Of a DNA stretch of 64,000 nt, positions 1,615-62,829 are shown one piece after another. This stretch comes from a virus. The stretch covers positions 17,017 through 81,016 of IMG/VR virus record IMGVR_UViG_3300021233_000290; one strand, written 5' to 3'. The notes under the pieces are model-generated. The model had not been told where the DNA came from. It saw only the letters and a program-made list of their open reading frames with translations, and made no database searches. Each line of letters begins with the position of its first letter. Positions within the stretch are counted from its first letter, which is position 1. The translations under genes and the position numbers were made by a program.

Positions 1615-1617
1615 AAC

Positions 1618-2185: not shown

Positions 2186-2186
2186 T

Positions 2187-2585: not shown

Positions 2586-2815
2586 AAGCAAATTATAGGG
2601 GTTTTGAAATAGAATCGAAAAGTGAAAAATCTTTAGGTGGATGGAATGAAGTCTATTGGAGTGCTTATCGAACATCAGATGGTTATGAATTAGCTTGTGG
2701 ATTCGGTGACGGCACTGTTCGAGAGATGTTTTCTTGTATGAAAACAATCGTAGATAGGTTTATTGATGAATATGATGAAAATGTAGAAGAATATGAAAAA
2801 CATGAAGGATATTAG
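2582..2815 (+). CDS. Hypothetical protein, 77 aa
   Basis: Not recognised. The start at 2582 gives an ATGA overlap with the previous stop, implying translational coupling; an in-frame ATG at 2576 is also possible. The sequence alternates strands and aromatic residues (GWNEVYWSAYRTSDGYELACG) and then a helix with an acidic tail (EYDENVEEYEKHEG). The stretch shaped like an 'apply to whole object' domain (GWNEVYW ... SDGYELACGFGDGTVREMF) suggests a small alpha/beta fold. Confidence 0.6.
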   Translation: MKANYRGFEIESKSEKSLGGWNEVYWSAYRTSDGYELACGFGDGTVREMFSCMKTIVDRFIDEYDENVEEYEKHEGY

Positions 2816-3560
2816 TATTGAAAATCACGAAGCATATAAAAATTGTGGAGGAAAGTTGATCTGTCAATTGATTGGTGGTTCGACTCTGTATGGATTGAAT
2901 ACACCAGAATCGGATGTCGATCATCGTGGTCTATTTGTAGCTAAAAATAAGCGATATTTGGCTAATCTGGACACGATTGAGTCTATTGTTCAGACTGGTG
3001 ATATTGATTCCACTTATTACGAGATTACTCGTTACTTGAAATTGTTGAGAAAGAGTAATACTCAGGTGTTGGAGATTCTATTTGCACCCGATACAGCATT
3101 TACATACAAGCATCCAATTTTTGATGAAATCGTTGCACATGCTTATGACCTTATTGACACGAATACTCTCAAGAATTCGTTGAAAGGTTATGTATTCAGT
3201 GAAATTAAATTGGCAACTGGTCAAAGAAGTGGTCAATTGGGGGGTAAAAGGAAAAAAGCAGTGGAAACCTACGGATTCAGCCCGAAAAACTTTGTCCAAA
3301 TCCTTCGATTGTGTAAGGTTGGTATCGAGTTCTTCACTACTGGTAAATACATGGTGAACGTCAAGGAATTTGATGAGAAGTATTGGGAGAAATTGATGGA
3401 CTTAAAAACTAGCCCACAATACTACACCTGCGAGCAACTGGAACGAATGGTGAACGAAGAATTCGCCAAATTGGAAGGAGTAATGGAGTCATCTAATATC
3501 TCTTTCAAATTTAATCCAGATATTGCAGCAGATATCATTTTAAAAGTAAAAAATATATGA
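2802..3560 (+). CDS. Predicted nucleotidyltransferase (YcgL/COG3541 type)
   Basis: 252 aa from the ATG at 2802 (an ATG at 2793 is also in frame; both overlap the upstream gene). The N-terminus carries the nucleotidyltransferase signature GGSTLYGLNTPESDVDHRG, i.e. GS followed by SDxD acidic metal ligands, at about residues 26-44. A helical C-terminal domain follows. This arrangement fits the YcgL-like family, a predicted RNA-repair-linked nucleotidyltransferase common in bacteria and phages. The substrate is unknown. It may belong with the RNA ligase and kinase genes at 52-61 kb, although it is far from them. Confidence 0.75.
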   Translation: MKDISIENHEAYKNCGGKLICQLIGGSTLYGLNTPESDVDHRGLFVAKNKRYLANLDTIESIVQTGDIDSTYYEITRYLKLLRKSNTQVLEILFAPDTAFTYKHPIFDEIVAHAYDLIDTNTLKNSLKGYVFSEIKLATGQRSGQLGGKRKKAVETYGFSPKNFVQILRLCKVGIEFFTTGKYMVNVKEFDEKYWEKLMDLKTSPQYYTCEQLERMVNEEFAKLEGVMESSNISFKFNPDIAADIILKVKNI

Positions 3561-5109: not shown

Positions 5110-5120
5110 GGTAATAATTA

Positions 5121-5765: not shown

Positions 5766-5767
5766 AA

Positions 5768-6235: not shown

Positions 6236-6237
6236 AA

Positions 6238-7305: not shown

Positions 7306-7313
7306 ATTTTTAA

Positions 7314-7976
7314 TTATCCAATTCTTCTCCAGACGTAAATACCGTAACTAGGTGGAATATTAGTATGGGAATTACTACCCCCAACGTTTGATGTAAAACC
7401 TTGCGATGAATTAGCTGTCATATCATCGATATCTATAGATCTTGTAGCGTTTCCAGGAGTGTCTTGCCTACTTATACCATATACACTACCATTAGCTTGA
7501 TTATCAGCAGATGTTTTAGCGTAAACACCATTTAAATGATTATGTGTTGGGATTTGGTCTGTCGTTAGTTTAACTGAATATACTCCCCTAATATCATTAC
7601 CAGAGATAAAAGCGACAGATTCTGAATTAACATCTACCCCCGTCCCAACACCTACTAAAAATCTTCCTTGAGAAATCTGTTCCCATGAAGTTCCAGTGAA
7701 TCTAGATTGTGGATTCGTATCATCGAAACTCAGATATACCGAATTTACTGGATAGAGATAATCAATGATAGTATTGAACCCTTCAACTGTTAATTTTTCA
7801 GTGGAAAGTGTTCCTGAAACATGAACACCATCTTTACCAACGTTTAATGCTGTTTTATTACCCAATCCGTCAAATACTGGAACTTTATTTGAAGAATCTA
7901 CTGGGGTATTGGAAGTATGGAGCATACCTTTGTATGAATCCGAAATGAATTGGTCTGTAAGATCTGGAAGTGCCAT
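7314..7976 (-). CDS. Tail-fibre/collar protein with gp10-C-like domain
   Basis: 220 aa. Residues 75-110 read YPVNSVYLSFDDTNP, then GTSWEQISQGRFLVGVG, the hallmark of the T4 gp10 C-terminal / collar-like domain found in many fibres. After it come DQIPTHNHLN and a final GGSNSHTNIPPSYGIYVWRR; the paired His motifs and the PPSYGxYVWRR end are typical of gp12/gp37-type collar domains, which bind metal and form the trimeric tip. The start lies 11 bases from a late element that contains the stop of the upstream gene. First gene of the fibre cluster. Confidence 0.8.
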   Translation of the reverse strand: MALPDLTDQFISDSYKGMLHTSNTPVDSSNKVPVFDGLGNKTALNVGKDGVHVSGTLSTEKLTVEGFNTIIDYLYPVNSVYLSFDDTNPQSRFTGTSWEQISQGRFLVGVGTGVDVNSESVAFISGNDIRGVYSVKLTTDQIPTHNHLNGVYAKTSADNQANGSVYGISRQDTPGNATRSIDIDDMTANSSQGFTSNVGGSNSHTNIPPSYGIYVWRRIG

Positions 7977-9760: not shown

Positions 9761-11946
9761 TTGAAGTAGATGATATTATTTAATTCGGTAGTTACTGGTG
9801 TGAAGTCATCACATGTTTTCTGAATTATTCGCTCCAAATCCGATTTAATACTTTCGGGTAAGGTCGTATTTCTGATTAATATGTTGATATGATTAGATTT
9901 GAATGATTGGTTATTACAAATAGACTGTAGTAAATCAATTTCATCATCATTATTTCTCTGACCACACGGAAGTGTTATCTCAATTTTGTCAACTCTTGCA
10001 TTATCATTGACAAATGGTAATATCAGAGATTCATTGAAGGTTGTGGATTTCAAATATAATGAAAAATTGTTCTCATTATTAAAATTCGCAATAAAATTAC
10101 CGAACAACACTTTCTTACCAAAAAATTGATACTTGTCGAAATTAATATTCAACACAATCTTCCCATTCAGATTCGCATAAGCGATTCCTTTCATAACATT
10201 TATTGAAAAAACGATATGATTATCCTTCAGAACTTTTATCGGTTGAATAGTATTGAATTTGTTGTATGTATTATCACTTGGATCAAACGATATATAAGTT
10301 AATTCCACGAAATTACCATTTTTAATGATTTCTAGTCCAGCTTCTATATTGTTTCTATTACTTTTGAAAATCCAATTGCTATAATCACCCTTAAAGTTTA
10401 ATAATAAAGTGAATTCTCCTGCATCATTTATCTTTTCGAAATAATTTAGATTGTCTTCATCACATAAATCAATTCTATCATCGGTAAGGATTGGATCAAA
10501 ATCACCAATTCTTTCATAAACAAATTTATCATTTGGTTCAATAACAAAATCACTTTTCTTATCAAAAACTTGGAAAGCTGATAAGCTATCCCTGATAAAA
10601 GCATCATTTTTCACTAGATTTTCGACCAAATCTTCATATGTCGGATTGAAAGTGGCTTTGAGTTTTAGTGCTTGTTCTTTTTCGATGAAATCAGGATAGT
10701 AATAACGATCAACCCAAATCTTTTCATCGCCTAATGGTGAACCCGATAACCAAGTGCATAGATAAACCTGACCATCACTGTAAAGATTATCATCATCAAG
10801 CTTATAAACTTTGTCAGAGTAAATTGGGGTGTCGAATGAGAACGCACCACATTCTACAAATTTAGTATCGTTGATATTTATTTTTAGAAAAGGGGCGAGA
10901 CTAGAAGGTGCTTTCAAGTAATTCTTACCACTTTTTATCACATAAGATTTATTGTAAAAGACATAATTCAACGTCAATTCTTCGTCTTTTTCTTTAGTAA
11001 TATCGTTGAAAATAGACGTGTAATCTCTCATTTTATCTATAAAGAACGGAGAACCTGATGTTGATAATAGATTGTTACCAGATGTAAATGTATCATCCTG
11101 TGTTAATTGATTTTTCAACACCAACAATTCCACCTCATCATTTTCACTATGTATCAGATAATTATTTTCGATATTTTTCTCTATCAAATTGTTTGGTATA
11201 GTATTATCAGTATCGTATCCAACAATACTGAAATTTGCCATGTCTTCCACTTTCGAATAAAGTGGTCTATCAATATAGATAGTATTAGTCACTGCCAACA
11301 CCTTATTAAATTCTGAAAATGGTGTTAAATTCAATGAAGTACCGCTTTTCGTCAGCATTTTACAAGTGGAATTACTATTCTCGAAAAGAGAAATGCTATT
11401 ATTCGTCGCTGAATAAATGTAATTGAATACAATCGGTGATATACCAATTTTATTTCCGAAAAATGAAATTCTATTATTATCTATCCCTAAATAATACTTT
11501 TTGTATTGATATAAGAAGTAGATCTTACAGGTGTTATCTTGTCCTATTTCTATGATGAAATTGGAAGCACTGTTTTTATCTGTCGTGAACCCATAATCAC
11601 CATATTGATCGTATTTCGAATATTCCTCATTTTCTGTAAAGCGTAACACACCGAAATCTCTAGGTGAAAATGTTAAAAAAGATCCACCGAAATTCAATGT
11701 TGTTAAAATATCATCAGATTTGATTGGATTTGTTTCTGAGGATACTATGTCTGTTAATTTGAAATTTTTAGTGAGATAAAAAGAACTGTAATTTTTGAAT
11801 TTTACATCCCTAACATCGGCAAATGCATCATAAAAATTAAAAGAAAATCCGCCATCATAATATCTTTGATACTTATTCAAAGTATTGATGTTGGAAGAAT
11901 ACGTTCTAGGGGAACAAGAAGATAATTTATTTACTGAAACATCCAC
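9757..11946 (-). CDS. Large late baseplate protein, 729 aa
   Basis: Not recognised. The GTG start at 11946 is chosen because it is 11 bases from the T of a late element. Rich in Asn, Asp, Phe and Tyr with regular strands. The C-terminal third (about residues 500-640) has GEFTLLLNFKGDYSNWIFKS, then VKGIAYANLNGKIVLNI-like strands, resembling a lectin-like (concanavalin-type) jelly roll. That would suit binding to surface glycans. The lectin reading is inference from strand pattern only. Confidence 0.6.
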   Translation of the reverse strand: MDVSVNKLSSCSPRTYSSNINTLNKYQRYYDGGFSFNFYDAFADVRDVKFKNYSSFYLTKNFKLTDIVSSETNPIKSDDILTTLNFGGSFLTFSPRDFGVLRFTENEEYSKYDQYGDYGFTTDKNSASNFIIEIGQDNTCKIYFLYQYKKYYLGIDNNRISFFGNKIGISPIVFNYIYSATNNSISLFENSNSTCKMLTKSGTSLNLTPFSEFNKVLAVTNTIYIDRPLYSKVEDMANFSIVGYDTDNTIPNNLIEKNIENNYLIHSENDEVELLVLKNQLTQDDTFTSGNNLLSTSGSPFFIDKMRDYTSIFNDITKEKDEELTLNYVFYNKSYVIKSGKNYLKAPSSLAPFLKININDTKFVECGAFSFDTPIYSDKVYKLDDDNLYSDGQVYLCTWLSGSPLGDEKIWVDRYYYPDFIEKEQALKLKATFNPTYEDLVENLVKNDAFIRDSLSAFQVFDKKSDFVIEPNDKFVYERIGDFDPILTDDRIDLCDEDNLNYFEKINDAGEFTLLLNFKGDYSNWIFKSNRNNIEAGLEIIKNGNFVELTYISFDPSDNTYNKFNTIQPIKVLKDNHIVFSINVMKGIAYANLNGKIVLNINFDKYQFFGKKVLFGNFIANFNNENNFSLYLKSTTFNESLILPFVNDNARVDKIEITLPCGQRNNDDEIDLLQSICNNQSFKSNHINILIRNTTLPESIKSDLERIIQKTCDDFTPVTTELNNIIYFK

Positions 11947-19350: not shown

Positions 19351-19359
19351 GGTAAATGT

Positions 19360-19367
19360 TAAATAAT
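19360..19367 (+). promoter_or_regulatory. Late promoter, divergent pair member
   Basis: TAAATAAT; T at 19360 is 11 bases before the ATG at 19371. Confidence 0.8.
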
Positions 19368-19370
19368 AAC

Positions 19371-21659
19371 ATGCCAAAGATTTCTCAATATGTTCCTGCG
19401 TCAACACCATTATCTGGTGGTGAAGTCATTATTCTCAATCAAAACGGGACCACATTCAACACCACTCTTAACACGGTTAAAGATTATATGGGTCCAAATG
19501 GATCTGATGTTTCAACTTTATCAGCTAATTGGGAAAATACCTCAACAACTTTTAGAGCGAATTCGGCTAATTGGGAAAATACCACGACAACTTTTAGAGC
19601 GAATTCGGCTAATTTTGCTAGAATTGACCAACCTAATACATTTTCTTGTGATCAAATTTTTTCAAGTGGTAATATTTTTTTAGGAGGTGGATTACCATCA
19701 GTGGCAATTAGAAATCGAGGAAATTGTGGAGTCACAATTGGTTATGACGTTGGCGTTCCTTCTAATAATACATTTTTAGTTGGTAATTGTGCTGGTAATT
19801 TGGCTACAAATGCGTGTCACTCTAATTTTTTAGGTAATAATAGTGGTAATTCTGCCACAAACGCTTTCTTTTCTAATTTCTCAGGTTGTAATGCTGGTCT
19901 TTCAGCCACAAATGCTAATAACTCTAATTTCTTAGGTCGAAATGCTGGTCGCCTTGCTACAAATGCGTGTCATTCTAATTTCTCGGGTTGTAATACTGGG
20001 TGTAATGCTAGAAATGCTAGCTTTTCCAATTTCTTTGGTTATAATGCTGGATGTAACGCTACAAACGCCAGCAGTTCTAATTTCTTAGGTTCTAGTTCTG
20101 GTCGAAATTCTACAAATGCTCGTAATTCTAATTTTTTAGGTGCTGGCACTGGTAGAAACGCCATAAATGCTTGTTTTTCCAATTTCATAGGTAATTATTC
20201 TGGTTATGGTGCTACAAATGCTTTTTCTTCTAACTTCTTAGGTGGTAATTCTGGTTATTATGCTAATAACTCATCATATTCAAATTTCTTAGGTTATAAC
20301 ACTGGTAGGAGTGCTACAAATGCATGTCATTCTAATTTCTTGGGATTGTATTCTGGTTGTGCTGCTGCAAATGCTTCCTTTTCTAACTTCTTAGGTAGAT
20401 GCTCTGGTCGTTCTGCGACAAATGCTAACAACTCCAATTTTTTTGGTAGATACGCTGGTTTTATATCCACAAATGCGTGTCATTCTAATTTCTCAGGTTA
20501 TAATGCTGGTCGAAGTGCTGCAAATGCTAATAACTCTAATTTCTTGGGTTCTAATGCTGGATGTAATGCCACGAGTGCTAATAATTCTAATTTTTTAGGT
20601 AATGGTGCTGGTCAAAATTCTACAAATGCTTGTTTTTCTAATTTCTTAGGTAATAGTGCTGGGCGAAATTCTGCGTGTGCGGTCAATTCCAATTTCTTAG
20701 GTAATAATGCTGGTTTTAGTGCTGCAAGTGCTAATAACTCTAATTTCTTAGGTAATAATGCTGGTTGCGGTGCTGCAAGTGCTAATAACTCTAATTTCTT
20801 AGGTCAAAGAGCTGGTTATAATGCTGCAAATGCTTGTAGCTCTAATTTCTTAGGTAATAATGCTGGTTGCGGTGCTGTAAGTGCTAATAACTCTAATTTC
20901 TTAGGTAATAATGCTGGTTGCGGTGCAACAAATGCTAATAATTCCAATTTCTTAGGTAATAATGCTGGTTTTAGTGCAACAAATTCTAATAACTCTAATT
21001 TCTTAGGTAATAATGCTGGTTGCGGTGCTGCAAATGCTTGTAGCTCTAATTTCTTAGGTAATAATGCTGGTTGCGGTGCTGCAAGTGCTAATAATTCCAA
21101 TTTCTTAGGTAATAATGCTGGATGTAATGCCACGAGTGCTTGTTTTTCCAATTTCATGGGTAATAATGCTGGATGTAATGCGACAAATGCTCGTTATTCC
21201 AATTTCATGGGTCGAAATGCTGGATTAAATGCTACAAATGCTTTTTATTCCAATTTCTTTGGAAATAGTGCTGGTGGTAATGCTGCAAGTGCTAATAACT
21301 CCAATTTCTTGGGTCGAAATGCTGGATGTAATGCTAACGCATCATGTGAATCGATTTTCATCGGAAACAATACAGGTAATAACAGTTGCAATAGTTGCGC
21401 TTCTGTCTTTATTGGAAGTTTTGCAAATGAAAATATTTTCAACTCTCAACGTGCAATTGCAATCGGTGCTTGTTCTAGAGCGAGTAGCTGCGGTGTTGCA
21501 TTAGGTTGGGGTGCTACGGTCACAACTAATAATTTAGCCTTTGGAAGTACTAACGCGCCATTACAAGTTGCACCTGGACAAACCCTTTCAACTTCATTGA
21601 GTAGCTTATTCACCATCGTGAATGGTGTGTGTTTCAGAATCCCATTGTTAGCTCCTTAA
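19371..21659 (+). CDS. Giant repeat fibre protein (17-residue repeats, YadA-like end)
   Basis: 762 aa. The N-terminal 60 residues include a tandem 14-residue unit (ANWENTSTTFRANS, then ANWENTTTTFRANS). From about residue 135 to 665 the protein consists of roughly 30 copies of a 17-residue unit, consensus SNFLGNNAGxxATNAxN. The end changes to AIAIGACSRASSCGVALGW, like YadA-type head repeats, before a short C-terminal cap. Such repeats form left-handed beta-rolls, so this is a probable trimeric fibre or adhesin. The underlying DNA is a diverged 51-bp tandem array. Its plus-strand orientation breaks a long minus-strand baseplate cluster. No chaperone-type peptidase domain is visible. Confidence 0.75.
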   Translation: MPKISQYVPASTPLSGGEVIILNQNGTTFNTTLNTVKDYMGPNGSDVSTLSANWENTSTTFRANSANWENTTTTFRANSANFARIDQPNTFSCDQIFSSGNIFLGGGLPSVAIRNRGNCGVTIGYDVGVPSNNTFLVGNCAGNLATNACHSNFLGNNSGNSATNAFFSNFSGCNAGLSATNANNSNFLGRNAGRLATNACHSNFSGCNTGCNARNASFSNFFGYNAGCNATNASSSNFLGSSSGRNSTNARNSNFLGAGTGRNAINACFSNFIGNYSGYGATNAFSSNFLGGNSGYYANNSSYSNFLGYNTGRSATNACHSNFLGLYSGCAAANASFSNFLGRCSGRSATNANNSNFFGRYAGFISTNACHSNFSGYNAGRSAANANNSNFLGSNAGCNATSANNSNFLGNGAGQNSTNACFSNFLGNSAGRNSACAVNSNFLGNNAGFSAASANNSNFLGNNAGCGAASANNSNFLGQRAGYNAANACSSNFLGNNAGCGAVSANNSNFLGNNAGCGATNANNSNFLGNNAGFSATNSNNSNFLGNNAGCGAANACSSNFLGNNAGCGAASANNSNFLGNNAGCNATSACFSNFMGNNAGCNATNARYSNFMGRNAGLNATNAFYSNFFGNSAGGNAASANNSNFLGRNAGCNANASCESIFIGNNTGNNSCNSCASVFIGSFANENIFNSQRAIAIGACSRASSCGVALGWGATVTTNNLAFGSTNAPLQVAPGQTLSTSLSSLFTIVNGVCFRIPLLAP
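19523..19606 (+). repeat. Two tandem 42-bp repeats
   Basis: GCTAATTGGGAAAATACC... units at 19523-19564 and 19565-19606, differing at only a few bases and coding 14 residues each. A partial third copy begins at 19607. Confidence 0.85.
19775..21345 (+). repeat. About thirty diverged 51-bp coding repeats
   Basis: Period 51 bp (17 residues), conserved around TCTAATTTCTTAGGTAATAA and GCTGGT. Units near 20690-21130 are almost identical, those at the edges more diverged. That fits expansion in the centre by unequal recombination. Confidence 0.85.
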
Positions 21660-22442
21660 AAAATTGTAATTAATATTTGCAAATTGATCATAGAGAGAAC
21701 CCAACACTTCTCTACTATCATCTTTTTGCGGTTTCACTACTGAGCGGATAGTATGAAGATCTGTAAATCCGTGTTCAGCATCGTTTTCAATGGTGTATTG
21801 TTGAACATTGTGGAAATCGTGATGATAAGATTTTTTTCCTAAAAAGTTATATACTCGATTCATTACGGTTTCAGGTGAACTCGTCAATTCGACATAATCA
21901 ACAAAATGGAATTTATGTTTGTGTCCTCTGAAAAAAGCATCTTGAATACTGTTAAAAGTTCCACCGATCAAGCCGTTTGCAGCCATCCAATTATTGACTC
22001 TATCTTCAATCGTGTTCATACCATCACCTCTAAGCATAGGACTTTCAATATTCTTAATTTCTTTCCGATACAATTTTTCCATTGACGAAATTATCTGAAC
22101 AATTGGTCTGACGGTTGTGATAATTTTAACTTCTTTTTCCAAAGCTAGTTCAATCAATTCGATATTACTAGCCCATCCTCTTGATTTATTAAACACGATT
22201 GGTCTGTCTGTATCGGAATGATAAGACTGGAATAAATCTTTAATAATTCTTAATTGTTTTTTAGGAGCTTCAGATGCTTTGATAATAGGATTCGTCTTCC
22301 AAAATTGGTGGATACCAACTATCAATTCTGATAAACCGCTTGTTGGCGTGACATGGAATTCGGGATTTTGTGCTAAAATGTTACAAAAAAGTGTCGAACC
22401 AGAACGTGGCATACCATTGATGAAGAATATTTCTTTTTCCAT
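21648..22442 (-). CDS. Sulfotransferase-family protein
   Basis: 264 aa from the ATG at 22442, fixed by a late element 11 bases upstream. The N-terminus FFINGMPRSGSTLFCNILAQ is the 5'-phosphosulfate-binding P-loop of PAPS-dependent sulfotransferases (PRSGST). Then come IVFNKSRGWASN and IITTVRPIVQIISSMEKLY, where the Arg and Ser positions fit 3'-phosphate binding. HKFHFVDYVELTSSPETVMNRVYNFLG is the usual YExL-like C-terminal element. It would move sulfate from PAPS to a hydroxyl, perhaps on a glycan. Divergent from a GT9-like glycosyltransferase gene. Uncommon in phages. Confidence 0.8.
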   Translation of the reverse strand: MEKEIFFINGMPRSGSTLFCNILAQNPEFHVTPTSGLSELIVGIHQFWKTNPIIKASEAPKKQLRIIKDLFQSYHSDTDRPIVFNKSRGWASNIELIELALEKEVKIITTVRPIVQIISSMEKLYRKEIKNIESPMLRGDGMNTIEDRVNNWMAANGLIGGTFNSIQDAFFRGHKHKFHFVDYVELTSSPETVMNRVYNFLGKKSYHHDFHNVQQYTIENDAEHGFTDLHTIRSVVKPQKDDSREVLGSLYDQFANINYNFLRS

Positions 22443-22445
22443 GTA

Positions 22446-22453
22446 AGCATTTA
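22446..22453 (-). promoter_or_regulatory. Late promoter (minus strand), divergent pair member
   Basis: Minus-strand TAAATGCT, a variant of the element; T at 22453 is 11 bases before the ATG at 22442. Confidence 0.65.
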
Positions 22454-22478
22454 GTATTGCATTTATTTTTTGCAAGTG

Positions 22479-22486
22479 TAAATACG
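22479..22486 (+). promoter_or_regulatory. Late promoter, divergent pair member
   Basis: TAAATACG; T at 22479 is 11 bases before the ATG at 22490. Confidence 0.65.
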
Positions 22487-22489
22487 ATC

Positions 22490-23374
22490 ATGCAAGCTTT
22501 ATTTCATATTACGGGTGGTTTGGGTAAACACGTTGCCGCAACAAGCGTAATTAATTCTTATAAGTTCAAATTTCCCGACGAAGAGATTATCGTATCTAGT
22601 GCTTATCCTGATGTTTTTGAGAAAAATCCAAATGTTAAAGAATCTTTAGATATCAATAATCTTCAATATTTTTATAAAAATTACATAAACAAAAAAGATG
22701 TAAAAATCTTTGCTCAAGAACCATATAGAGAGACCTCGCACATCTCGAAACAAAAACATCTCATTCAAACGTGGTGTGAAATGGTTGGGACTGAACAATA
22801 TTTCCAACCATCGTTAAACATTGGTTTCAGGGAACATGAAATTATCTCCAGACAATTTATTAATGAGAAGCCGATTTTAATATTCCAACCTTTTGGTGGT
22901 ATTAATTCCAATTTACCTTATAATTGGGCGAGAGATATTCACCCTTCGGTTGCACAATCTATTGTTAATATGTTAGCTGACAAATATAATATTCTCTACA
23001 TTTGCAACCCATATCACCCAGCTCTCAATAATTGCCACAGGATCGATAACAGATTATCATTCGGAGAGTTAGTTTCTTTAGTCGGTATTTCTGATAAGAG
23101 ATTTTTAATTGATTCATCAATCCAACATATCGCTGCTGCGATAGGAAAACCATCTATCGTGGTTTGGAATGTGACATCACCAGAAATATTTGGTTATAAT
23201 ATGCATGATAATATTACCAGTCCTGTTGATTATAGTGATGGTCACAGAAAATCCTATTTATTCGATTATGAAATTGCTGGAATACCAGCAGAATGCCCAG
23301 TTTCAAATTATATGAACATGTTTGATATGGATCAAATTCTCGATTCGATAAAATATCTTTTAGATGATAAATAA
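22490..23374 (+). CDS. Glycosyltransferase family 9-like (heptosyltransferase type)
   Basis: 294 aa from the ATG at 22490, chosen by its 11-base distance from the late element over an in-frame TTG at 22457. The N-terminal ALFHITGGLGKHVAATSVINS is the glycine-rich start of a GT-B fold; the C-terminal domain has FLIDSSIQHIAAAIGKPSIV then VWNVTSPEIFGY, which is the nucleotide-sugar-binding signature of ADP-heptose:LPS heptosyltransferases. The donor may differ in a phage. With the neighbouring sulfotransferase it may modify host surface glycan or virion glycan. Confidence 0.75.
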   Translation: MQALFHITGGLGKHVAATSVINSYKFKFPDEEIIVSSAYPDVFEKNPNVKESLDINNLQYFYKNYINKKDVKIFAQEPYRETSHISKQKHLIQTWCEMVGTEQYFQPSLNIGFREHEIISRQFINEKPILIFQPFGGINSNLPYNWARDIHPSVAQSIVNMLADKYNILYICNPYHPALNNCHRIDNRLSFGELVSLVGISDKRFLIDSSIQHIAAAIGKPSIVVWNVTSPEIFGYNMHDNITSPVDYSDGHRKSYLFDYEIAGIPAECPVSNYMNMFDMDQILDSIKYLLDDK

Positions 23375-34717: not shown

Positions 34718-34942
34718 ATGAAAAAAAGCACTATCTTAAAAAAGTTGGATAATTACGAAGAACGTATTATTAAAATTATTGATGAAATGCAGGATTTTCT
34801 GGATTCTGTCGATGACTCTGATGTTTCAGTCATGACTGAAGATTTTTGTCAAGGAATGCTTGACTATGTTCAAGAGAATGGTATTTGTAATTTGAATGAC
34901 ATCAGAGAATTTATTGAAAATGATTATGAAACCGAATTATAA
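34718..34942 (+). CDS. Hypothetical acidic helical protein, 74 aa
   Basis: Not recognised. ATG at 34718, two bases after the previous stop. It consists of helices with an acidic run (EMQDFLDSVDDSDVSVMTED). Its last 17 bases overlap the start of the RmlD-like gene, so it links the hub-assembly and sugar-nucleotide genes in one transcript. Confidence 0.6.
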   Translation: MKKSTILKKLDNYEERIIKIIDEMQDFLDSVDDSDVSVMTEDFCQGMLDYVQENGICNLNDIREFIENDYETEL

Positions 34943-35807
34943 TATTTTAATTTTAGGTAAAGGTTATGTTGGTAAATACCTATCAGACCATTTGAGTTTG
35001 GTTGGTTATAGAAATTTTCTAAAATCTAGAGAAGAATTAGATTACCATGATTCGAGAGAGCTTAATAAGTTCATTTTGAACAATGGCATCAATCATGTGA
35101 TCAATTGTTCAGGATTTACTGGTAGACCAAATGTTGATCAAGGAGAATTGGAAAAAGAAGATTGTTGGAATTTGAATGTTGTAGTTCCGCTGAATATCAA
35201 TAAAATCTGTGAGAAATTGAATGTTAATTACTTACACATTTCAACTGGTTGTTTATACGATGGATATGATAAACAATGGTCCGAGCAAGATGCTCCTAAC
35301 TTTGGATTATTTCAGAATCACAGCTCATTCTATTCCAAATCTAAACACGCTTTTGAAAATCTTTCCCAAGACTTGAAGGGAGTTGTTTTGAGAATTAGAA
35401 TGCCATTCGGTAAAGATTTCTCCAATAGAAATTATTTCACTAAAATTAAACAATATCCAAAATTGTTGAATTTGGTAAATTCTAAGACATACATTCCCGA
35501 TCTTTGTGTTTTTGTTGAGAAATTATTAGGTGAAGATTTCTATTTCTGGACTGATAGACAGATTTACAATGTGGTCAATCCTGATGCTCTTAAAACTGAG
35601 GAGGTTTGTGAAATTCTTAAAAAGTATGGTTTACACAATTCTAATTGGAAATTTGTTGATAGATCAGAACTGAAAACTTACGCTAATAGATCTAATTGTG
35701 TGTTGAATACGAGCAAATCAAGTGTCATTCATAATATGATGACGGAAAAACAAGCACTCGTAGATTATTGCGAATTTGTAGTAAACTCTTCCAAAAATTA
35801 TGAATAA
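34926..35807 (+). CDS. NAD(P)-dependent sugar-nucleotide reductase, RmlD-like SDR
   Basis: 293 aa from the ATG at 34926. Rossmann start ILILGKGYVGKYLSDHL (GxGxxG), then HVINCSGFTGRPNVDQGE and LHISTGCLYDGYDKQWSEQD. FYSKSKHAFE gives the catalytic YxxxK. This is the layout of dTDP-4-dehydrorhamnose reductases and related 4-ketoreductases. With RmlA (next gene, eight-base overlap) and RmlB (48569) it would complete a dTDP-6-deoxyhexose route apart from an epimerase. The true product sugar cannot be told. Confidence 0.75.
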   Translation: MKPNYNILILGKGYVGKYLSDHLSLVGYRNFLKSREELDYHDSRELNKFILNNGINHVINCSGFTGRPNVDQGELEKEDCWNLNVVVPLNINKICEKLNVNYLHISTGCLYDGYDKQWSEQDAPNFGLFQNHSSFYSKSKHAFENLSQDLKGVVLRIRMPFGKDFSNRNYFTKIKQYPKLLNLVNSKTYIPDLCVFVEKLLGEDFYFWTDRQIYNVVNPDALKTEEVCEILKKYGLHNSNWKFVDRSELKTYANRSNCVLNTSKSSVIHNMMTEKQALVDYCEFVVNSSKNYE

Positions 35808-36543
35808 CAGAAAAGCTATTTGTCTTGCAGGTGGAAAAGGAACTCGTCTCCATCCTTTGACGAAGACGAGTAGTAAACAACTTTTACCGATTTATAAAAA
35901 ACCAGTCATAGCATTCCCTCTTCAAACTTTGAAGGAAATGGGTTATGTTGACATTTTGATCATTAATGCTGATGAAGAGCAGCAAATCCAATTTAAAAAA
36001 TTATTAGGGAACGGTGAGAAGTTTGATTTGAATTTTTCATATATAATTCAAGATTCTCCTAGAGGACTTGCTGATGCGTTTATTGTTGGTGAGGAATTTA
36101 TTAAGGATGCTGATGATATTTGTCTTATCCTTGGTGACAATATTATCATTGGTAATTCGCCAATCCACCCTCAACCAAACACTATCTTCACATACAAAGT
36201 CAAAGACCCATCTGCTTATGGTGTCGTGAAAACGGATGATAATGGGTGGATCAAACAAATTGTGGAGAAACCAAAAGAATTTATTTCTGATGATGCTGTA
36301 ATTGGTCTTTATATATTTTCCAATGAAGTGGTGGAAATGGCTAAAAAGGTCACTCCATCTGCGAGAGGGGAGCTTGAAATCGTAGATCTAATTCGCATGA
36401 TGAATGATAAAGAAGGTGTCAATGTTGAAAAATTGGATGGATTTTGGTTCGATGTGGGTGATTATGATAGTCTATTAGACTGTGCAAATCTTGTCCGAAC
36501 TATTGACAAACGATCAAACCATGCTATTGGTTTAGATGTATGA
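35800..36543 (+). CDS. rmlA: Nucleotidyltransferase, RmlA-like (sugar-1-phosphate)
   Basis: 247 aa, shorter than RmlA (about 290). KAICLAGGKGTRLHPLTKTS then SKQLLPIYKKPVIAFPLQTL is the diagnostic GGxGTRLxPLT...KxxLPVxxKP signature. ICLILGDNII gives the catalytic GDN, IVEKPKEF the sugar-phosphate site, and FWFDVGDYDSLLD the closing motif. It makes dTDP- (or UDP-) glucose from glucose-1-phosphate. The missing length is at the C-terminal allosteric region, common in phage and some bacterial forms. It overlaps the SDR gene before and the clamp loader after (ATGA). Confidence 0.85.
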   Translation: MNNRKAICLAGGKGTRLHPLTKTSSKQLLPIYKKPVIAFPLQTLKEMGYVDILIINADEEQQIQFKKLLGNGEKFDLNFSYIIQDSPRGLADAFIVGEEFIKDADDICLILGDNIIIGNSPIHPQPNTIFTYKVKDPSAYGVVKTDDNGWIKQIVEKPKEFISDDAVIGLYIFSNEVVEMAKKVTPSARGELEIVDLIRMMNDKEGVNVEKLDGFWFDVGDYDSLLDCANLVRTIDKRSNHAIGLDV

Positions 36544-48568: not shown

Positions 48569-49534
48569 ATGGTAGATTTAACAAACAAAACGATACTTGT
48601 CACGGGTGGTGGTGGATTTATTGGTAGTAATTTTATTGAAATGGTGTTGAAAAAATATTACTACTGCAACGTCATAAACATTGACAAGCGTGGTATTGGT
48701 TCAAGGTCTTTGATAGACGAATCTTATAATTGGATTGGAACACAGCGAAGAAATCTATATTATGAATATATGGAAAACTTGATGTATTTAGATTTATCCT
48801 TGAGTCGAACTAAACAATGGAAATTCGATTACATCTTCCATTTTGCTGCTGAATCCCATGTTGATCGTAGTATCAATTCCCCTGAAGCATTTATTGAAAA
48901 CAATGTGATGGGTATGGTATCTCTATTGGAGTGGGTGCGAAAATATCAATCTCAAGCAAAGGTTATTAATATCTCTACGGATGAAGTGTTTGGTCATTTG
49001 AATGCGAATGATCCTGCTTTCACTGAAGAATCACCATTTAATCCAAGAAGTCCTTACGCTGCATCCAAAGCATCCGCTGATCTGATTGCCAATGCTTACG
49101 TTACCACTTATGGTTTGGATATCACTACGACACATTGTTGTAACAATTTTGGCAAACACCAAGCAGATGAAAAATTTATCCCCACTGTAATCCGCTCTAT
49201 TGTGAGGGGAGAACCTATCCCTGTCTATGGAACAGGTGAGAACATTCGGGAATGGATTCATGTCGAAGATCATAACAAATGGTTGCTTGAAATTGCTGGT
49301 AATCATCACTGTTCTACAAATATTGGGTCGGGGATTGAAAAAACAAACCTTGACATGATCAAAGATATTGGTAATATATTGGGAGTGGAACCCCAAATTA
49401 AATTCGTCGAAGATAGAAAAGGACATGACTTCCGTTATGCTATCGAATCTTATATTCCATTTGAATTGAGAAATCACGAAGAAGCTCTTAAAGAAACTGT
49501 TGAATTTTACAAAAACAAATACCAAGTGGTCTAA
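48569..49534 (+). CDS. rmlB: dTDP-glucose 4,6-dehydratase, RmlB-like
   Basis: 321 aa. Rossmann start ILVTGGGGFIGSNFIEMVLK; FHFAAESHVDRSINSPEAFI; catalytic STDEVFGH (Thr-Asp-Glu) and PYAASKASAD with YxxxK; then HHCSTNIGSG-like and EWIHVEDHNKWLLEIAG. These are the RmlB-family residues for NAD-dependent 4,6-dehydration of dTDP-glucose, making dTDP-4-keto-6-deoxyglucose. RmlA- and RmlD-like genes lie 12-14 kb away. No RmlC-type epimerase was found in the window. Confidence 0.85.
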   Translation: MVDLTNKTILVTGGGGFIGSNFIEMVLKKYYYCNVINIDKRGIGSRSLIDESYNWIGTQRRNLYYEYMENLMYLDLSLSRTKQWKFDYIFHFAAESHVDRSINSPEAFIENNVMGMVSLLEWVRKYQSQAKVINISTDEVFGHLNANDPAFTEESPFNPRSPYAASKASADLIANAYVTTYGLDITTTHCCNNFGKHQADEKFIPTVIRSIVRGEPIPVYGTGENIREWIHVEDHNKWLLEIAGNHHCSTNIGSGIEKTNLDMIKDIGNILGVEPQIKFVEDRKGHDFRYAIESYIPFELRNHEEALKETVEFYKNKYQVV

Positions 49535-52413: not shown

Positions 52414-52598
52414 AATACACAGGTAATATTAATAGCTACACCTTTATTATGAAGGAAGGTGATGATGTAATCGAGGTATGGTCAGATATGGATGCGGAAT
52501 TTCCAGAATCATATATCTACCTAAAAGAGGGTGAAATTAAGAGTGAGCGTCATTTCCACATGGAGATATCGGATTGGTGGATGCGAAATAAAAACTAG
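52410..52598 (+). CDS. Hypothetical protein, 62 aa
   Basis: Not recognised. Strand-rich and acidic (NINSYTFIMKEGDDVIEVWS). Coupled to the preceding gene by ATGA. Its TAG stop is the TAG of the AAAAACTAG promoter for the kinase-like gene. Confidence 0.6.
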   Translation: MKYTGNINSYTFIMKEGDDVIEVWSDMDAEFPESYIYLKEGEIKSERHFHMEISDWWMRNKN

Positions 52599-52614
52599 CT
52601 TACAATCGGTTGCG
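52590..52614 (+). promoter_or_regulatory. Early/middle promoter motif AAAAACTAG-type
   Basis: AAAAACTAGCTTACAAT with -10-like TACAAT at 52601-52606, eight bases to the ATG at 52615. It contains the upstream stop. Confidence 0.7.
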
Positions 52615-53175
52615 ATGGACAAACATTACAAACACATCGTTGACGATACAAACGGTAAAAGCAGTGAAGAACTGAGAACTGATATTTTAAAAGAAATTGA
52701 CGAAGCTATTGTGGCCACCTCGGATGAAGAGTTGGCAGAATATTTCCAAATGAGAAAAGTTGATTACTCTATGAAAAAAGTGATTTTGATTAGAGCAGTC
52801 AGCGGTGCTGGTAAATCAACTTTTGCTGAAATGCTTGCACCTGATTTTTATATCTGTTGTGCTGATGATTTCTTCACAGACGACCAAGGTAATTACAATT
52901 TCGATGCTTCCAAGCTTGGACAGGCTCATAAAGCTTGTCAAGAAAAGTATCTCAAATTGGTGGATCATCCATATATAGATCTTATTGTTGTTTCAAACAC
53001 GAACACGAAAGAATCTGATTATAAGTTTTATCTTGACGAAGCGGAAAAGCGTGGTATTATGGTTTTCTCGTTGGTGCTTGAGAATAGGCATGGTGGTAAA
53101 AACTTACATGGAGTACCTGACCATGTGCTTGAGCGTCAGGAACAGAATATTAAAAACAGCTTAAAATTGCGATGA
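52615..53175 (+). CDS. P-loop kinase, polynucleotide-kinase-like (AAA_33)
   Basis: 186 aa from the ATG at 52615, fixed by the promoter. Walker A SGAGKST at 63-69 in ILIRAVSGAGKSTFAEML; a CADDFFTDD Walker-B-like stretch; VVSNTNTKESDYKFYLDEA; and a C-terminal HGVPDHVLERQEQNI with Arg contacts. This is the layout of the T4-PNK-type and NEDD4BP2-like kinases, which phosphorylate 5' ends of RNA or DNA. There is no phosphatase domain, unlike T4 Pnkp. It may serve the RNA ligase at 59342. Confidence 0.75.
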   Translation: MDKHYKHIVDDTNGKSSEELRTDILKEIDEAIVATSDEELAEYFQMRKVDYSMKKVILIRAVSGAGKSTFAEMLAPDFYICCADDFFTDDQGNYNFDASKLGQAHKACQEKYLKLVDHPYIDLIVVSNTNTKESDYKFYLDEAEKRGIMVFSLVLENRHGGKNLHGVPDHVLERQEQNIKNSLKLR

Positions 53176-58584: not shown

Positions 58585-58674
58585 ATGAAACTCCCAAGTA
58601 CAGAAGAATTTAACTTCAAAGATTGCACCATCGCTGGCGATGAGTGCTGGCTTATCATGCGATTCATTTTTTAA
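58585..58674 (+). pseudogene. 5' remnant of a second RNA ligase gene cut by a homing endonuclease
   Basis: 29 codons from ATG: KLPSTEEFNFKDCTIAGDEC then WLI, after which the sequence turns into the reverse of the endonuclease 3' end. The remnant has the look of the N-terminus of phage Rnl1-type ligases (LPxxEEF...GxxxWLITP...) and lines up with the start of the intact ligase at 59342 (LPEGFVAKRRTMFGKNMVLI). The rest of this gene is not found downstream. Ten bases overlap the endonuclease gene. Confidence 0.6.
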
Positions 58675-59302
58675 ATTCCCATCTAAAACCAAAAGCGGTT
58701 TTCATCCGAATCCCCTTAATTGCCTTTGATATATCACCAGTTCTATTTTTACCATTACTCAAAAAATTAGTAGCATCTTTTATGGAATCCCATTCTGCAA
58801 TAATTTCGTCGTTCGCAGGGTTTATTTGTAATATTGGTTTTTTAGTCTTTTTTCTTATTTTTTCTATTGATTCTTGTGATATTTTTCTACCTTTGAAAAT
58901 TTTAGATAACTTTTCTCTTGTTTTGGAGCTTACGACTTTTCCCCTATGGGTATCACCTATTTTTTTCTTGGATTCTTCTGTGTGTTTCATACCAGTCAAA
59001 TCCAGCCCCCTTTTACAAACATTGTATCCGCTCGGAACTAGAGAATTAAATTTGATTATTAACTGCTCTTCTAAATTTAATAGATCAATTTTTTTAAAAT
59101 TTGGTAAATATTCGACATAAACTTCAAAATTTTCATCCCCGTAACGATCCAAAGCTTTACCTATTACTTGATATCTCTCTTTTTTATAGCGGCGCAACCT
59201 TTTTTTAATACTTACAGATTCACCTACATAATATTTACCATTTACTAAGCATTTTATAACGTATATCCCAGGCACGTCTTCGAATTTATCAAATATCTTC
59301 AT
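58664..59302 (-). CDS. GIY-YIG homing endonuclease with NUMOD motifs
   Basis: 212 aa. The N-terminal GIYVIKCLVNGKYYVGESVS is the GIY-YIG catalytic core with RLRRYKKERYQVIGKALDRY behind it (catalytic Arg region) and NLEEQLIIKFNSL (Glu). NUMOD3 repeats follow (HTEESKKKIGDTHRGKVVSS) and a NUMOD1-type end (QINPANDEIIAEWDSIKDAT). It sits on the opposite strand between an RNA-ligase remnant and an intact RNA ligase, with its own late promoter. Distant from the copy at 50624 in sequence. Confidence 0.9.
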   Translation of the reverse strand: MKIFDKFEDVPGIYVIKCLVNGKYYVGESVSIKKRLRRYKKERYQVIGKALDRYGDENFEVYVEYLPNFKKIDLLNLEEQLIIKFNSLVPSGYNVCKRGLDLTGMKHTEESKKKIGDTHRGKVVSSKTREKLSKIFKGRKISQESIEKIRKKTKKPILQINPANDEIIAEWDSIKDATNFLSNGKNRTGDISKAIKGIRMKTAFGFRWEFKK

Positions 59303-59341: not shown

Positions 59342-60439
59342 ATGAAAAATACTTTAAATTTTTATAGAAATCTTCCAGAAGGGTTTGTAGCGAAGAGGAG
59401 AACCATGTTCGGCAAGAATATGGTGCTAATCACCCCTACGGATATTAAGACAAAATGGTGCGAAAAAACTGAATTTTTTCGCAGTTGTCTATTTGACGAG
59501 GACACTGGTAAAATTTATAGCTTAGGTTTCAAAAAATTTAAAAATTGGGGCGAAGACCCAGAATTTCAACCGTGGGATCATTCTTGGGAGTTTGAGGCTC
59601 GTTACAAAGTAGATGGGTCACTGCTTTGTATATCAAAAATTGATGGTAATATCTTGATGCGAACAAGGGGTGTGTTTGACGCGAGAGAACATGAGACTGG
59701 TGACGAATTGGACGGATTTATTGAAAAGTATCCGCTTCTTTACGAAAACGAATTTATTAATTCTGAAAATTATACCATTTTATGCGAACACACAACTCCG
59801 AAAAGAATTATCGTTTTGCGTGAAAGCGATGAACCAAAATTGACTCTTTTGGGCATTATTTGTCATAAGACAGGGCAATATGTCTCACAATGCGTTTTGG
59901 ATGGTTTTGCGCAGCGAATTGGAATTGATCGACCTCAAAAATATATTTATAAAAATATCGCAGATTGTATTGCCGATGTTGAAGCGTGGAGAGGGAAGGA
60001 GGGGGTTGTTGCTTACTCTCCTGACGGTCAGACATTGAAAAAATTTAAAAGTAGTCATTATCTTTCACTCCATAAATTATCGTTTGGTTTGAGAGGGTTG
60101 GACAATGTTTTAGATTTGTTTGTCGAGTCTCCAAGATTTTTGGATTATCAAGATTTTTATAATTATGTGTTGGAGTCTCTGGACTTCGAAATAGCAGAAA
60201 AAATTAAAGATGAAGCGCGTCAAATCACCGATGCTTATGCAAAATTTGTGAAAGGTGTTGAGAAAATGCGTGAACGGATGGAGTTCATTCGTAATTATGC
60301 TACTCGAAAAGAGCAAGCTGCGGCGATTCAAGAAGAGTTCACGGGATGGAAAACGTCGATTGCGTTCCTACTTCTTGACAATCGAGAAATTGATGATAAA
60401 GTCGTGCGTAAGGCAATGGAGAAAATATTAGAATTATGA
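59342..60439 (+). CDS. RNA ligase, T4 Rnl1-like
   Basis: 365 aa (T4 Rnl1 is 374). The nucleotidyl-lysine is Lys89 in motif I ARYKVDGSLLCISK; then MRTRGVFD (motif III region), YTILCEHTTPK (IIIa), EGVVAYSPDG (IV) and LKKFKSSHYLSLHK (V). The helical C-terminal domain that follows is like the Rnl1 tRNA-recognition domain. It joins 3'-OH and 5'-phosphate RNA ends using ATP, as in repair of cut tRNAs. Its end overlaps the ATP-grasp gene by four bases. Confidence 0.85.
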   Translation: MKNTLNFYRNLPEGFVAKRRTMFGKNMVLITPTDIKTKWCEKTEFFRSCLFDEDTGKIYSLGFKKFKNWGEDPEFQPWDHSWEFEARYKVDGSLLCISKIDGNILMRTRGVFDAREHETGDELDGFIEKYPLLYENEFINSENYTILCEHTTPKRIIVLRESDEPKLTLLGIICHKTGQYVSQCVLDGFAQRIGIDRPQKYIYKNIADCIADVEAWRGKEGVVAYSPDGQTLKKFKSSHYLSLHKLSFGLRGLDNVLDLFVESPRFLDYQDFYNYVLESLDFEIAEKIKDEARQITDAYAKFVKGVEKMRERMEFIRNYATRKEQAAAIQEEFTGWKTSIAFLLLDNREIDDKVVRKAMEKILEL

Positions 60440-61182
60440 TACTCATTAACAGTTATTTCGAAAACGAGCGAGAGCTTTGGGGTGAACATATCTTTTGTGA
60501 AGACTTGTGCCGCGATGAAGATATTCGGCGTAATGGTTTCACACCTATTGTAGCGCGAGGAAGCATTGCTTTCGACAATAGCGTAAAGTTTGCACTCAAG
60601 ACTCTTGGACTGCCTGATTTGCGCTTTCCATTCAATAATGACCCACGATTCTATAATTACAGCCATTGGAAATCCCTGCCTGATTTGTTAAACGCTGATT
60701 GTTGGTTCGATACATGGGGAGAAGTATCTGAATCTTTGGAGCATCGTGACAAGCTATGGATTCGCAGTGCTAGTGGTAATAAAAACTTTACTGGTGGCGT
60801 TTTCACGCGCAGTGAATTCATGAACGAAGTCGAATATTTAAAACAAATAAATAGCGACGATATTATGTTTGTGGTTGCTCACCCAAAAACAATCAACCGC
60901 GAGTATCGCTTTGTGTTTGTTGGCGGCAAAGTAATCAGCAGCAGTCTTTACATGGAGAATGGTAATCCTAAACAAGGAGAACATGCACCTGATGATCTTG
61001 TTAAATTCGCGCAGAAATGGTTCGACAGTCAATGTCTTTTACCGAAACATGTGGTAGTGGACATTACCGACGATCAGAAGATTATTGAAATCAATAATAT
61101 CTTCACAAGCGGATGGTATAGTTGCGATCTGGAGAAAATTATCGCGGCAGTGAAGAAAGAGCTTGACATCCTTAAAAAATAG
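60436..61182 (+). CDS. ATP-grasp protein, R2K clade type
   Basis: 248 aa, starts in an ATGA overlap with the RNA ligase gene. LWIRSASGNKNFTGGVFTRS holds the ATP-grasp Arg/Lys nucleotide-binding strand; MFVVAHPKTINREYRFVFVG and GKVISSSLYMENG follow; IIEINNIFTSGWYS is the closing metal-binding Glu-x-Asn. These are the marks of the R2K-clade ATP-grasps, a family also seen in phages and predicted to make peptide-type bonds on proteins or other substrates (related to CDC123). The TAG stop lies in the next promoter motif. Confidence 0.75.
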   Translation: MILINSYFENERELWGEHIFCEDLCRDEDIRRNGFTPIVARGSIAFDNSVKFALKTLGLPDLRFPFNNDPRFYNYSHWKSLPDLLNADCWFDTWGEVSESLEHRDKLWIRSASGNKNFTGGVFTRSEFMNEVEYLKQINSDDIMFVVAHPKTINREYRFVFVGGKVISSSLYMENGNPKQGEHAPDDLVKFAQKWFDSQCLLPKHVVVDITDDQKIIEINNIFTSGWYSCDLEKIIAAVKKELDILKK

Positions 61183-61197: not shown

Positions 61198-62001
61198 ATG
61201 GAAGTTAAATACACAACAGATGGAAAAAAAGTATCGGTAGTTGGCAAACTTAATAACACGGAAACAATTGTTCAGGAAATTTTTGTAACTGCGAATGGTG
61301 CTGAAATCCCAAGTGGAGAAAATTTTGTCGTTAAAGGTCTTCACGATCAACCAGTAGAAAGTTGGAAAGAGAAGCAATTGCGGGAACTAGAAGCTCGCTA
61401 CTATCGTGAAAAAAATGAATGGGAAGGAAAAATCACGAATCAAAAAAGAAAACTTGAAAATGCGGTCGCTAAAGCTTCCTTAAAAGTAGATTCTCTTTTA
61501 TATTTTGTCAATAATTCAAATGAATCACAACTCAAAACACTTAAATTGATGTTGAGTGGTAAAATCAATTATTTTTTCATCGACGACACTTGGAATCCAC
61601 GAATTTCCACTTGGGATGATGAAATGTATACGTCAGATGGTTATGATGATGGTAAAGTCAGAAATCTCAAATTATTGGTAGTCGCAGGGGCATCGAATGG
61701 TGATTTGCAATACGGTATTTCGCAATATTCTGATGGTTCTGGTAGTAAGAGCCGAGTCTATCCATTTGAAACGCGAGAAGAAGCCTTAGCGCATGCTCAA
61801 AAAGTTTTTGATGATATTTGTGAAGAATATTTAAATTGTAAAAATGTCACTACAATACATTATTGGCTTAAAAAACCAATTAAAGATTTGGTTATCCCTG
61901 ATAAAGTTTGGGAAAAATATAAACAATCGCTAGAAGAAGAAAAGAACAAGCGAATCAAGAATCTCGAAGAGCAGATCGAGAAAATTCGCAACGAAGCTTA
62001 A
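61198..62001 (+). CDS. Hypothetical protein with coiled coils, 267 aa
   Basis: Not recognised. A small strand-rich N-terminal domain (KYTTDGKKVSVVGKLNNTET), a coiled coil at about 58-95 (LEARYYREKNEWEGKITNQK), a mixed middle domain (FFIDDTWNPRISTWDDEMYT) and a C-terminal charged coiled coil (QSLEEEKNKRIKNLEEQIEK). The central part includes LKLMLSGKINYFFIDD. Start set by the promoter, seven bases from the -10-like hexamer. Confidence 0.65.
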   Translation: MEVKYTTDGKKVSVVGKLNNTETIVQEIFVTANGAEIPSGENFVVKGLHDQPVESWKEKQLRELEARYYREKNEWEGKITNQKRKLENAVAKASLKVDSLLYFVNNSNESQLKTLKLMLSGKINYFFIDDTWNPRISTWDDEMYTSDGYDDGKVRNLKLLVVAGASNGDLQYGISQYSDGSGSKSRVYPFETREEALAHAQKVFDDICEEYLNCKNVTTIHYWLKKPIKDLVIPDKVWEKYKQSLEEEKNKRIKNLEEQIEKIRNEA

Positions 62002-62074: not shown

Positions 62075-62398
62075 ATGAAATGTGAATCCGATAAATTACG
62101 TCCATCAGAAACTTTTTGGGATGGTAAATTATTTCAGTATCGCGAATTGAATGGCGAATATCAAATATATAGCCGAGGTCTTGAGCATATAGCTATGGTA
62201 TCAAACGAGTCAATGGCAGAATTTATTACTAACTTACTAGAAGAACATTTTAAAAACGCAGTGATTGAAATCGCTGGAGGGGAAAACCAAGTAGAAGACT
62301 TCAAATTCTTCGCACCTGATATGAAAAATCCCGACGAGCTATTAAAAGCTGCAACACAAATGTTAAATGGAGAAGGAAAGGAATTAAGAAAATGTTAA
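62075..62398 (+). CDS. Hypothetical protein, 107 aa
   Basis: Not recognised. KLFQYRELNGEYQIYSRGLE at the start is strand-rich, then helices (AEFITNLLEEHFKNAVIEIA). The GGAAAGG in its 3' end serves as the ribosome-binding site for the next gene, which it overlaps by seven bases. Confidence 0.6.
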   Translation: MKCESDKLRPSETFWDGKLFQYRELNGEYQIYSRGLEHIAMVSNESMAEFITNLLEEHFKNAVIEIAGGENQVEDFKFFAPDMKNPDELLKAATQMLNGEGKELRKC

Positions 62399-62829
62399 AC
62401 AATATTAAACAAGATACAATTCAAGCAATGCGTGACAAATCTCAAGTAGATTTGGGAGTGTTGCGTATGTTGCAAAGTGCAATCACTAACGCTCAAATTG
62501 CTAAAAAAGGCGAACTGAGTGATGCAGAGATTATCAATCTAATCCGCAAACAGATTGCACAAAGACAAGACAGTGTTGATCAATTTCGATCTGGCGGTCG
62601 AGAAGAACTCGCTGATAAAGAACTAGCTGAAATCAGTGTTTTGCAACGCTATCTACCTATTGAATGGTCGAATGCCGAATTGGAACAAAATGTGCAATTA
62701 GTTATTGACAATTTAGGTGCGTCGAGTAAAAAGGACATGGGTCGAGTGATTAAAGCAGTTGTTGAAGCTGCCAATGGTCAATGCGATAACAAGAGAATTT
62801 CCCAAGCAGTGGGAGCAAAATTGAATTGA
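62392..62829 (+). CDS. GatB/YqeY-domain protein
   Basis: 145 aa, the size of bacterial YqeY. IKQDTIQAMRDKSQVDLGVL then RMLQSAITNAQIAKKGELSD is the N-terminal helical domain; IIRKQIAQRQDSVDQF-type and GREELADKELAEISVLQRYL follow; the C-terminal DMGRVIKAVVEAANGQCDNK is the helical tail shared with GatB. In bacteria the GatB tail domain touches tRNA during amidation; the role of lone YqeY is unsettled. Unusual in a phage, possibly linked to the tRNA/RNA-related genes upstream. Confidence 0.85.
   Translation: MLNNIKQDTIQAMRDKSQVDLGVLRMLQSAITNAQIAKKGELSDAEIINLIRKQIAQRQDSVDQFRSGGREELADKELAEISVLQRYLPIEWSNAELEQNVQLVIDNLGASSKKDMGRVIKAVVEAANGQCDNKRISQAVGAKLN

Follow-up and report, generated by a model that had tools for sequence, protein, structure and literature searches.

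An R2K-clade ATP-grasp gene behind a phage RNA ligase gene, and the recurrence of R2K genes beside RNA-repair genes in unrelated phages

Introduction

An RNA ligase gene whose stop codon overlaps the start codon of a gene for a predicted amide-forming enzyme raises the question of whether the two products belong to one system and act on one substrate. The locus concerned lies in the 81-kb IMG/VR virus record IMGVR_UViG_3300021233_000290, from which a stretch of 64,000 nucleotides (referred to as the window) was analysed; judging from its list of open reading frames (ORFs), the record appears to carry T4-like structural genes. The downstream gene belongs to the R2K clade of ATP-grasp enzymes, which is predicted, not demonstrated, to make amide or peptide bonds, and whose published context is protein modification and GNAT/ARG operons rather than RNA repair (Burroughs et al. 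2015; PMC4431377). The R2K proteins of jumbo phages, including AUZ95380.1 of Atu_ph07, are of the same family and were likewise placed under protein modification, with no link drawn to RNA ligases (Iyer et al. 2021; PMC7824862), whereas the window phage, with its 81-kb record, is not a known jumbo phage.

Outside CDC123, no R2K enzyme has a proven reaction or target. Repeated co-location with several unrelated classes of RNA-repair genes would give the phage R2K proteins a testable context, namely tRNA-targeting defences, and a narrower substrate search, and if R2K were to mark repaired RNA or its partners, an amide-forming step would be added to RNA repair. A literature search, which did not cover the 2016 RNA-repair survey by Burroughs and Aravind, where the subject may be mentioned, returned no paper tying R2K to RNA repair. 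Both protein families and the repair kit are already known, and what appears to be new is a recurrent R2K/RNA-repair neighbourhood.

The RNA ligase and the repair kit of the window phage

The ligase gene (59342..60439, + strand) encodes a 365-residue ATP-dependent RNA ligase of the Rnl1 family (T4 RnlA-like), as assigned from Pfam (PF09511 RNA_lig_T4_1, 4e-11), PHROG 562 (1.1e-33, residues 35-363 aligned), the T4 Rnl1 structure 2c5u (E=1e-4) and its motifs. The nucleotidyltransferase motif set is present, including KxDG, and comprises motif I as K89-VDGS, RTRG at 107, CEH at 148, EGVV at 220 and KKFK at 233, so that the preliminary description of an Rnl1-like ligase with its nucleotidyl Lys89 in KVDGS was accurate. 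As regards a putative Rnl1-type C-terminal domain, the PHROG 562 match extends to residue 363 and the PDB match only to around residue 257. The score against the TIGR02308 equivalog model was 49.7 bits, below the cut-off of 242, which identifies the protein as a divergent Rnl1 member and not as a T4 RnlA equivalog.

Directly upstream, on the opposite strand, lies a gene for a GIY-YIG homing endonuclease (58664..59302, − strand; PF01541 1.6e-10, PHROG 314 1.1e-25), a possible agent of ligase allele replacement. The pair is followed by a conserved phage protein with no assigned function (61198..62001, + strand; PHROG 16901 2.9e-79). Scans of the window for tRNAs and Rfam families gave no tRNA and no Rfam match, and PADLOC returned no match for the ligase and R2K pair.

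Two further genes of the phage bear on the function of the ligase. One encodes RlaP, the RNA-ligase-associated Pol-beta nucleotidyltransferase (2793..3560, + strand; PF10127 7.1e-17, PHROG 388 1.6e-27), and the other a P-loop kinase (52531..53175, + strand) that resembles polynucleotide kinase in PHROG and HMM comparisons; the latter call is uncertain, as PHROG 2071, annotated as ATPase, matches better (3.3e-33) than PHROG 505 polynucleotide kinase (2e-5), and the match to bacter_Pnkp (0.0025) is far under the cut-off. Since the same phage encodes RlaP and a kinase of this kind, the ligase is better seen as part of an ordinary T4-style repair kit than as a separate system, and the earlier proposal of a system distinct from the T4 Pnkp/Rnl1 pair was not upheld. 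The window thus resembles T4 Pnkp/Rnl1 repair, and its relatives with RlaP, in having an Rnl1-family ligase with the expected motifs together with RlaP and a PNK-like kinase, and is unlike it in that an R2K gene comes immediately after the ligase gene. T4 repair is not known to include R2K.

Family, active site and predicted fold of the R2K protein

The R2K gene (60436..61182, + strand) encodes 248 residues that match PF18299 R2K_2 (6.6e-14, 52.5 bits; gathering score 26.2), PF14243 R2K_3 (1.1e-10, 42.4 bits; gathering score 26.3) and PHROG 7313 (1.9e-33). For both proteins, the family calls made before any database search were right according to Pfam and PHROG, and the ATP-grasp signatures quoted at that time are real, containing the conserved K116, E156xR158 and E218xN220. 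The complete active-site set of the window protein is R110, K116, E156xR158, D209 and E218xN220, with ExR, the catalytic Asp and ExN all present. In an alignment of 60 phage R2K proteins, K116, E156, R158, D209 and E218 are unchanged throughout, K116 being the second conserved lysine, situated in the strand 2-3 loop (60 of 60 rows), and the position of N220 is occupied by N or G. Pfam membership, ExR, D, ExN and the invariant second lysine are shared with the R2K_2/R2K_3 (DUF4343) members of the published clade (PMC4431377). A difference lies in the strand-2 lysine of other ATP-grasps, which is an arginine in the window protein (R110) and in 55 of the 60 phage members and a lysine in the remaining five; the positive charge is retained at this position. 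Compared with its four closest relatives, the window gene gave dN/dS values of 0.04-0.1 where these were computable, which indicates that the protein is under purifying selection.

AlphaFold modelling, one of the checks suggested in the preliminary description, was run for R2K with 20 sequences and yielded a model with a mean pLDDT of 84, replacing an earlier one built from a 5-row alignment (pLDDT 56). The model has an ATP-grasp fold, and its best PDB matches in Foldseek were the amino-acid ligases LysX/ArgX, RimK and D-Ala-D-Ala ligase (Ddl), with E values of about 1e-7 to 1e-8 and TM scores of 0.5-0.66. The fold and active site are thus predicted, from modelling and from conservation, and the structural matches favour amide formation by R2K, short of proof; amide or peptide ligase activity is predicted for the window protein as it is for the clade.

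A role without any ligation has to be considered alongside this prediction. eIF2gamma is a member of the EF-Tu family, and R2K could be an ATPase chaperone resembling CDC123, which would bind ATP and a translational GTPase and assemble or protect the latter, no covalent bond being formed. R2K is the clade of CDC123 (PMC4431377), and as recent work describes CDC123 as an ATPase that chaperones eIF2 assembly (PMC12860950), a non-ligase role is to be kept in view; CDC123 is also the top PDB sequence match of the phage R2K profile, albeit a weak one (E=0.049). We nevertheless consider such a chaperone improbable, with amino-acid ligases rather than CDC123 as the nearest folds of the model, a strictly conserved active site, and phage members that fall in R2K_2/R2K_3, outside the CDC123 family.

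The ATGA junction and the variable slot behind the ligase

The ligase TGA and the R2K ATG overlap by 4 bases in an ATGA (60436..60439, + strand), exactly as had been described from the sequence. A special meaning of this overlap was ruled out: among the 17 same-strand junctions around the pair, 8 overlap, 3 of them by exactly 4 bases, and in related phages the slot is also taken by other ORFs. An intact R2K gene is found behind the ligase in the window phage and in L003-L006, with an unrelated small ORF lying between the two genes in L003. In L007-L009 the ligase is followed by a deletion remnant comprising the 49 C-terminal codons of R2K, and R2K is absent behind the ligase in L011, where an unrelated 68-aa ORF begins within the ligase's ATGA, and in L012-L016 and L021, where a glutaredoxin gene comes next. 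The ligases of L005 and L007 are identical, and most of the L007 R2K has been deleted. Ligase and R2K are therefore not a conserved unit: close relatives with an intact ligase have a deleted R2K or none. Between phages the R2K proteins share 79-95% identity, whereas for their ligases the figure is mostly only 46-63% across the main allele types, indicating that the two genes do not have one common history. With overlaps as the local norm, unrelated ORFs in the slot and R2K lost beside an identical ligase, the earlier step from coupling of the genes to a shared substrate is not supported.

These data fit an explanation in which a variable accessory-gene slot lies behind the ligase and R2K is unrelated cargo, with a protein target unconnected with RNA repair, the recurrences described below then reflecting how accessory genes cluster in large phages. 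The changing content of the slot among close relatives and the unequal divergence of the two genes speak for it. Against it, at least four divergent ligase alleles still have R2K in place behind them. We regard unrelated cargo as possible, if rather doubtful.

YqeY was likewise considered as a partner. The gene is indeed located where it had been reported, 1.21 kb after the end of R2K (62392..62829, + strand; PF09424 2.4e-43), yet its proposed membership of the system was not supported, as the gains and losses of the two genes are independent: L011 has YqeY and no R2K, and in L006 a truncated YqeY accompanies an R2K gene. Outside the window group, YqeY was found beside R2K only in Salicola phage SCTP-2. 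In both L006 (about 10267-10494) and L007 (about 9312-9539), a deletion has cut YqeY to its last 24 codons, which are fused to the upstream ORF.

R2K beside RNA-repair genes in other phages

In unrelated phages, most of them jumbo phages, R2K is found repeatedly next to genes for Rnl1, RNA_ligase/Rnl2-type ligases, RtcB and RlaP. Sinorhizobium phage Phosso has an Rnl1 ligase gene that overlaps R2K by 23 bases, and genes for CysRS and SerRS come next; no relatives of the Phosso R2K were found in IMG/VR. In L051, a 465-kb relative, Rnl1 is encoded upstream of R2K at a distance of about 0.9 kb, and a CysRS-like ORF was recognized downstream by inspection. The layout of the window is reproduced with a different ligase family in L097, where a gene for an RNA_ligase/Rnl2-type enzyme (PF09414 2.7e-20, KVDGSN) ends at the start of R2K and overlaps it; L068 has a similar layout in a locus cut by the contig end, and L054 has an RNA_ligase-family gene near R2K. 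An RtcB gene immediately precedes R2K in Tunturi_5 and comes after it in L084. In L090, the RlaP gene overlaps R2K, and two genes further on lies one for a KLDGEN protein whose ligase match is weak and below the cut-off. The 462-kb phage LR756500 (L060) has on its − strand (1002-7372) an apparent repair operon of genes for a PARP, two small proteins, R2K, an AAA ATPase, an RNA ligase with an HNH-like N-terminus (by inspection) and an HD plus kinase protein, the last four of which, from R2K onwards, are nearly gapless. Such pairings again argue against unrelated cargo, as they involve non-homologous ligase families and RlaP, take the form of overlapping frames or of a repair operon, and arose several times.

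On a tree of the 60 R2K proteins, the linked state requires 11 changes, of which supported branches force at least 8, which implies that the linkage of R2K to RNA repair was gained or lost many times. Among rejected candidates, the gene upstream of R2K in L052 was discarded as an RNA ligase, since it lacks KxDG and its match is confined to an OB-type N-terminal region, and the neighbours in L053 and L075 are DNA ligases and were left out of the counts. Bacterial genomes provided only three distant R2K loci, which in a quick look at their ORFs had no clear repair neighbours, and an alignment of 13 distant R2K proteins gave no usable search pattern.

Other neighbours and copies of R2K were also recorded. 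Xanthomonas phage XacN1 has a WGR-PARP gene 1.8 kb downstream of R2K. A peptidyl/aminoacyl-tRNA hydrolase gene lies about 2 kb from R2K in L025 and L026 (GAP32/XbC2-type R2K) and in Ralstonia phage RsoM2USA. Several jumbo phages (W02, W04, W05, W10, W12 and G045) carry two or three R2K paralogues.

Strength of the association

The frequency of these neighbourhoods was compared with a null model in which R2K is placed uniformly at random in each genome, the window's own group being excluded. Counts were made for several distances and gene sets; an RNA ligase was found within 1 kb of R2K in 6/51 genomes against 1.36 expected (P=0.002), and either a ligase or RlaP lay no more than 2.5 kb away in 10/51 against 3.1 expected (P=0.0003). 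The excess, about threefold, depends on the sampling. The ligase of G011 came from a separate scan, and short contigs raise the excess: without G011, 5/50 genomes have a ligase within 1 kb (P=0.014), and with contigs restricted in addition to those of at least 30 kb, 3/43 (P=0.08).

As a yardstick, RlaP, an accepted ligase partner, showed no excess within 2.5 kb and a threefold one within 5 kb. YqeY, serving as a control gene, was found within 2.5 kb in 2/14 cases against 0.58 expected, a ratio similar to that of the ligases; part of the R2K signal thus perhaps reflects a general tendency of RNA and translation genes to cluster, and clustering of tRNA and RNA genes is ignored by the uniform-placement null. 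We give the qualitative cases more weight than the P values. In about 80% of the surveyed phage genomes, neither an RNA ligase nor RlaP lies within 2.5 kb of R2K. In the search for ligase/ATP-grasp adjacency in other phages, which the preliminary description had suggested as a check, adjacency of R2K to RNA-repair genes recurred in unrelated phages, and most phage R2K genes had no ligase next to them, the latter in line with unrelated cargo.

Proposed role of the pair

The account that we favour, tentatively, is that the pair is part of a kit that keeps the host translation apparatus usable, with R2K as an accessory amide-forming enzyme whose target is most likely a protein. In its favour are the invariant active-site residues, the resemblance of the model to amino-acid ligases, the low dN/dS and the recurrence of R2K beside several families of RNA-repair genes in unrelated phages, with its forced changes on the tree and its excess over random placement. 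Going by its family and motifs, the Rnl1 ligase would work with the RlaP and kinase of the phage to reseal tRNAs that host anticodon nucleases have cut. R2K would be an optional accessory that, by analogy with its relatives, may use ATP to activate a carboxylate and form an amide bond. Its target would most likely be a protein belonging to the translation or tRNA machinery, or else to a host defence that attacks this machinery, in the manner of RimK acting on ribosomal protein S6. Ligase and R2K would thus serve in the same conflict as separable genes, a shared substrate being no part of this account. A protein is more probably the target than repaired RNA, and published opinion likewise favours protein targets for R2K (PMC4431377; PMC7824862). 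It weighs against the favoured account that R2K is dispensable beside an unchanged ligase, and that most surveyed genomes have neither ligase nor RlaP near R2K, with an excess that weakens under stricter sampling.

The linkage of R2K to ligases and RlaP would also be consistent with direct action on RNA. The bacterial Pnkp-Hen1 and Pnkp1-Rnl-Hen1 systems similarly encode a modifying enzyme with an RNA ligase, and 2'-O-methylation by Hen1 guards the repaired RNA from re-cleavage (PMC4411300), a precedent for modifying enzymes in RNA-repair complexes that confer resistance to renewed cutting, and a precedent in logic for the earlier, speculative idea of RNA joining and amide formation on one substrate. 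Following the same logic, R2K might add an amino acid to a repaired tRNA, for example at a carboxylate-bearing nucleotide of the anticodon loop, and so block re-cutting. Hen1, however, methylates RNA as part of a stable complex (PMC4411300), whereas R2K is an ATP-grasp protein known here from sequence and model. No RNA-binding domain was seen in the 248 residues by Pfam, PHROG or Foldseek of the model, the known relatives of R2K act on small molecules or proteins, and in most phages with both genes R2K is not near the ligase; we accordingly attach little probability to such shielding of repaired tRNA. A broader version, in which R2K is an unrecognised part of phage RNA-repair operons and, unlike Hen1 with its methylation, places an amino acid or peptide on the repaired or threatened tRNA, or on a protein bound to it, and makes it immune to re-cleavage, also seems very unlikely to us.

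Other features of the window

Several features apart from the ligase locus were noted. In the tail-gene region, a 51-base unit is repeated in tandem about 30 times (19803-21336) within an ORF of 767 aa (19356-21659) and encodes repeats of the SNFLGxNAGxxATNA type. At 21648-23374, a sulfotransferase-like gene (PF13469 3.5e-16) overlaps divergently with a heptosyltransferase-like gene. Nucleotide-sugar genes are located within the structural gene block at 34896-36543 and 48569-49534, and include an RmlD-like reductase, a nucleotidyltransferase and an RmlB/GDP-mannose-dehydratase-like gene.
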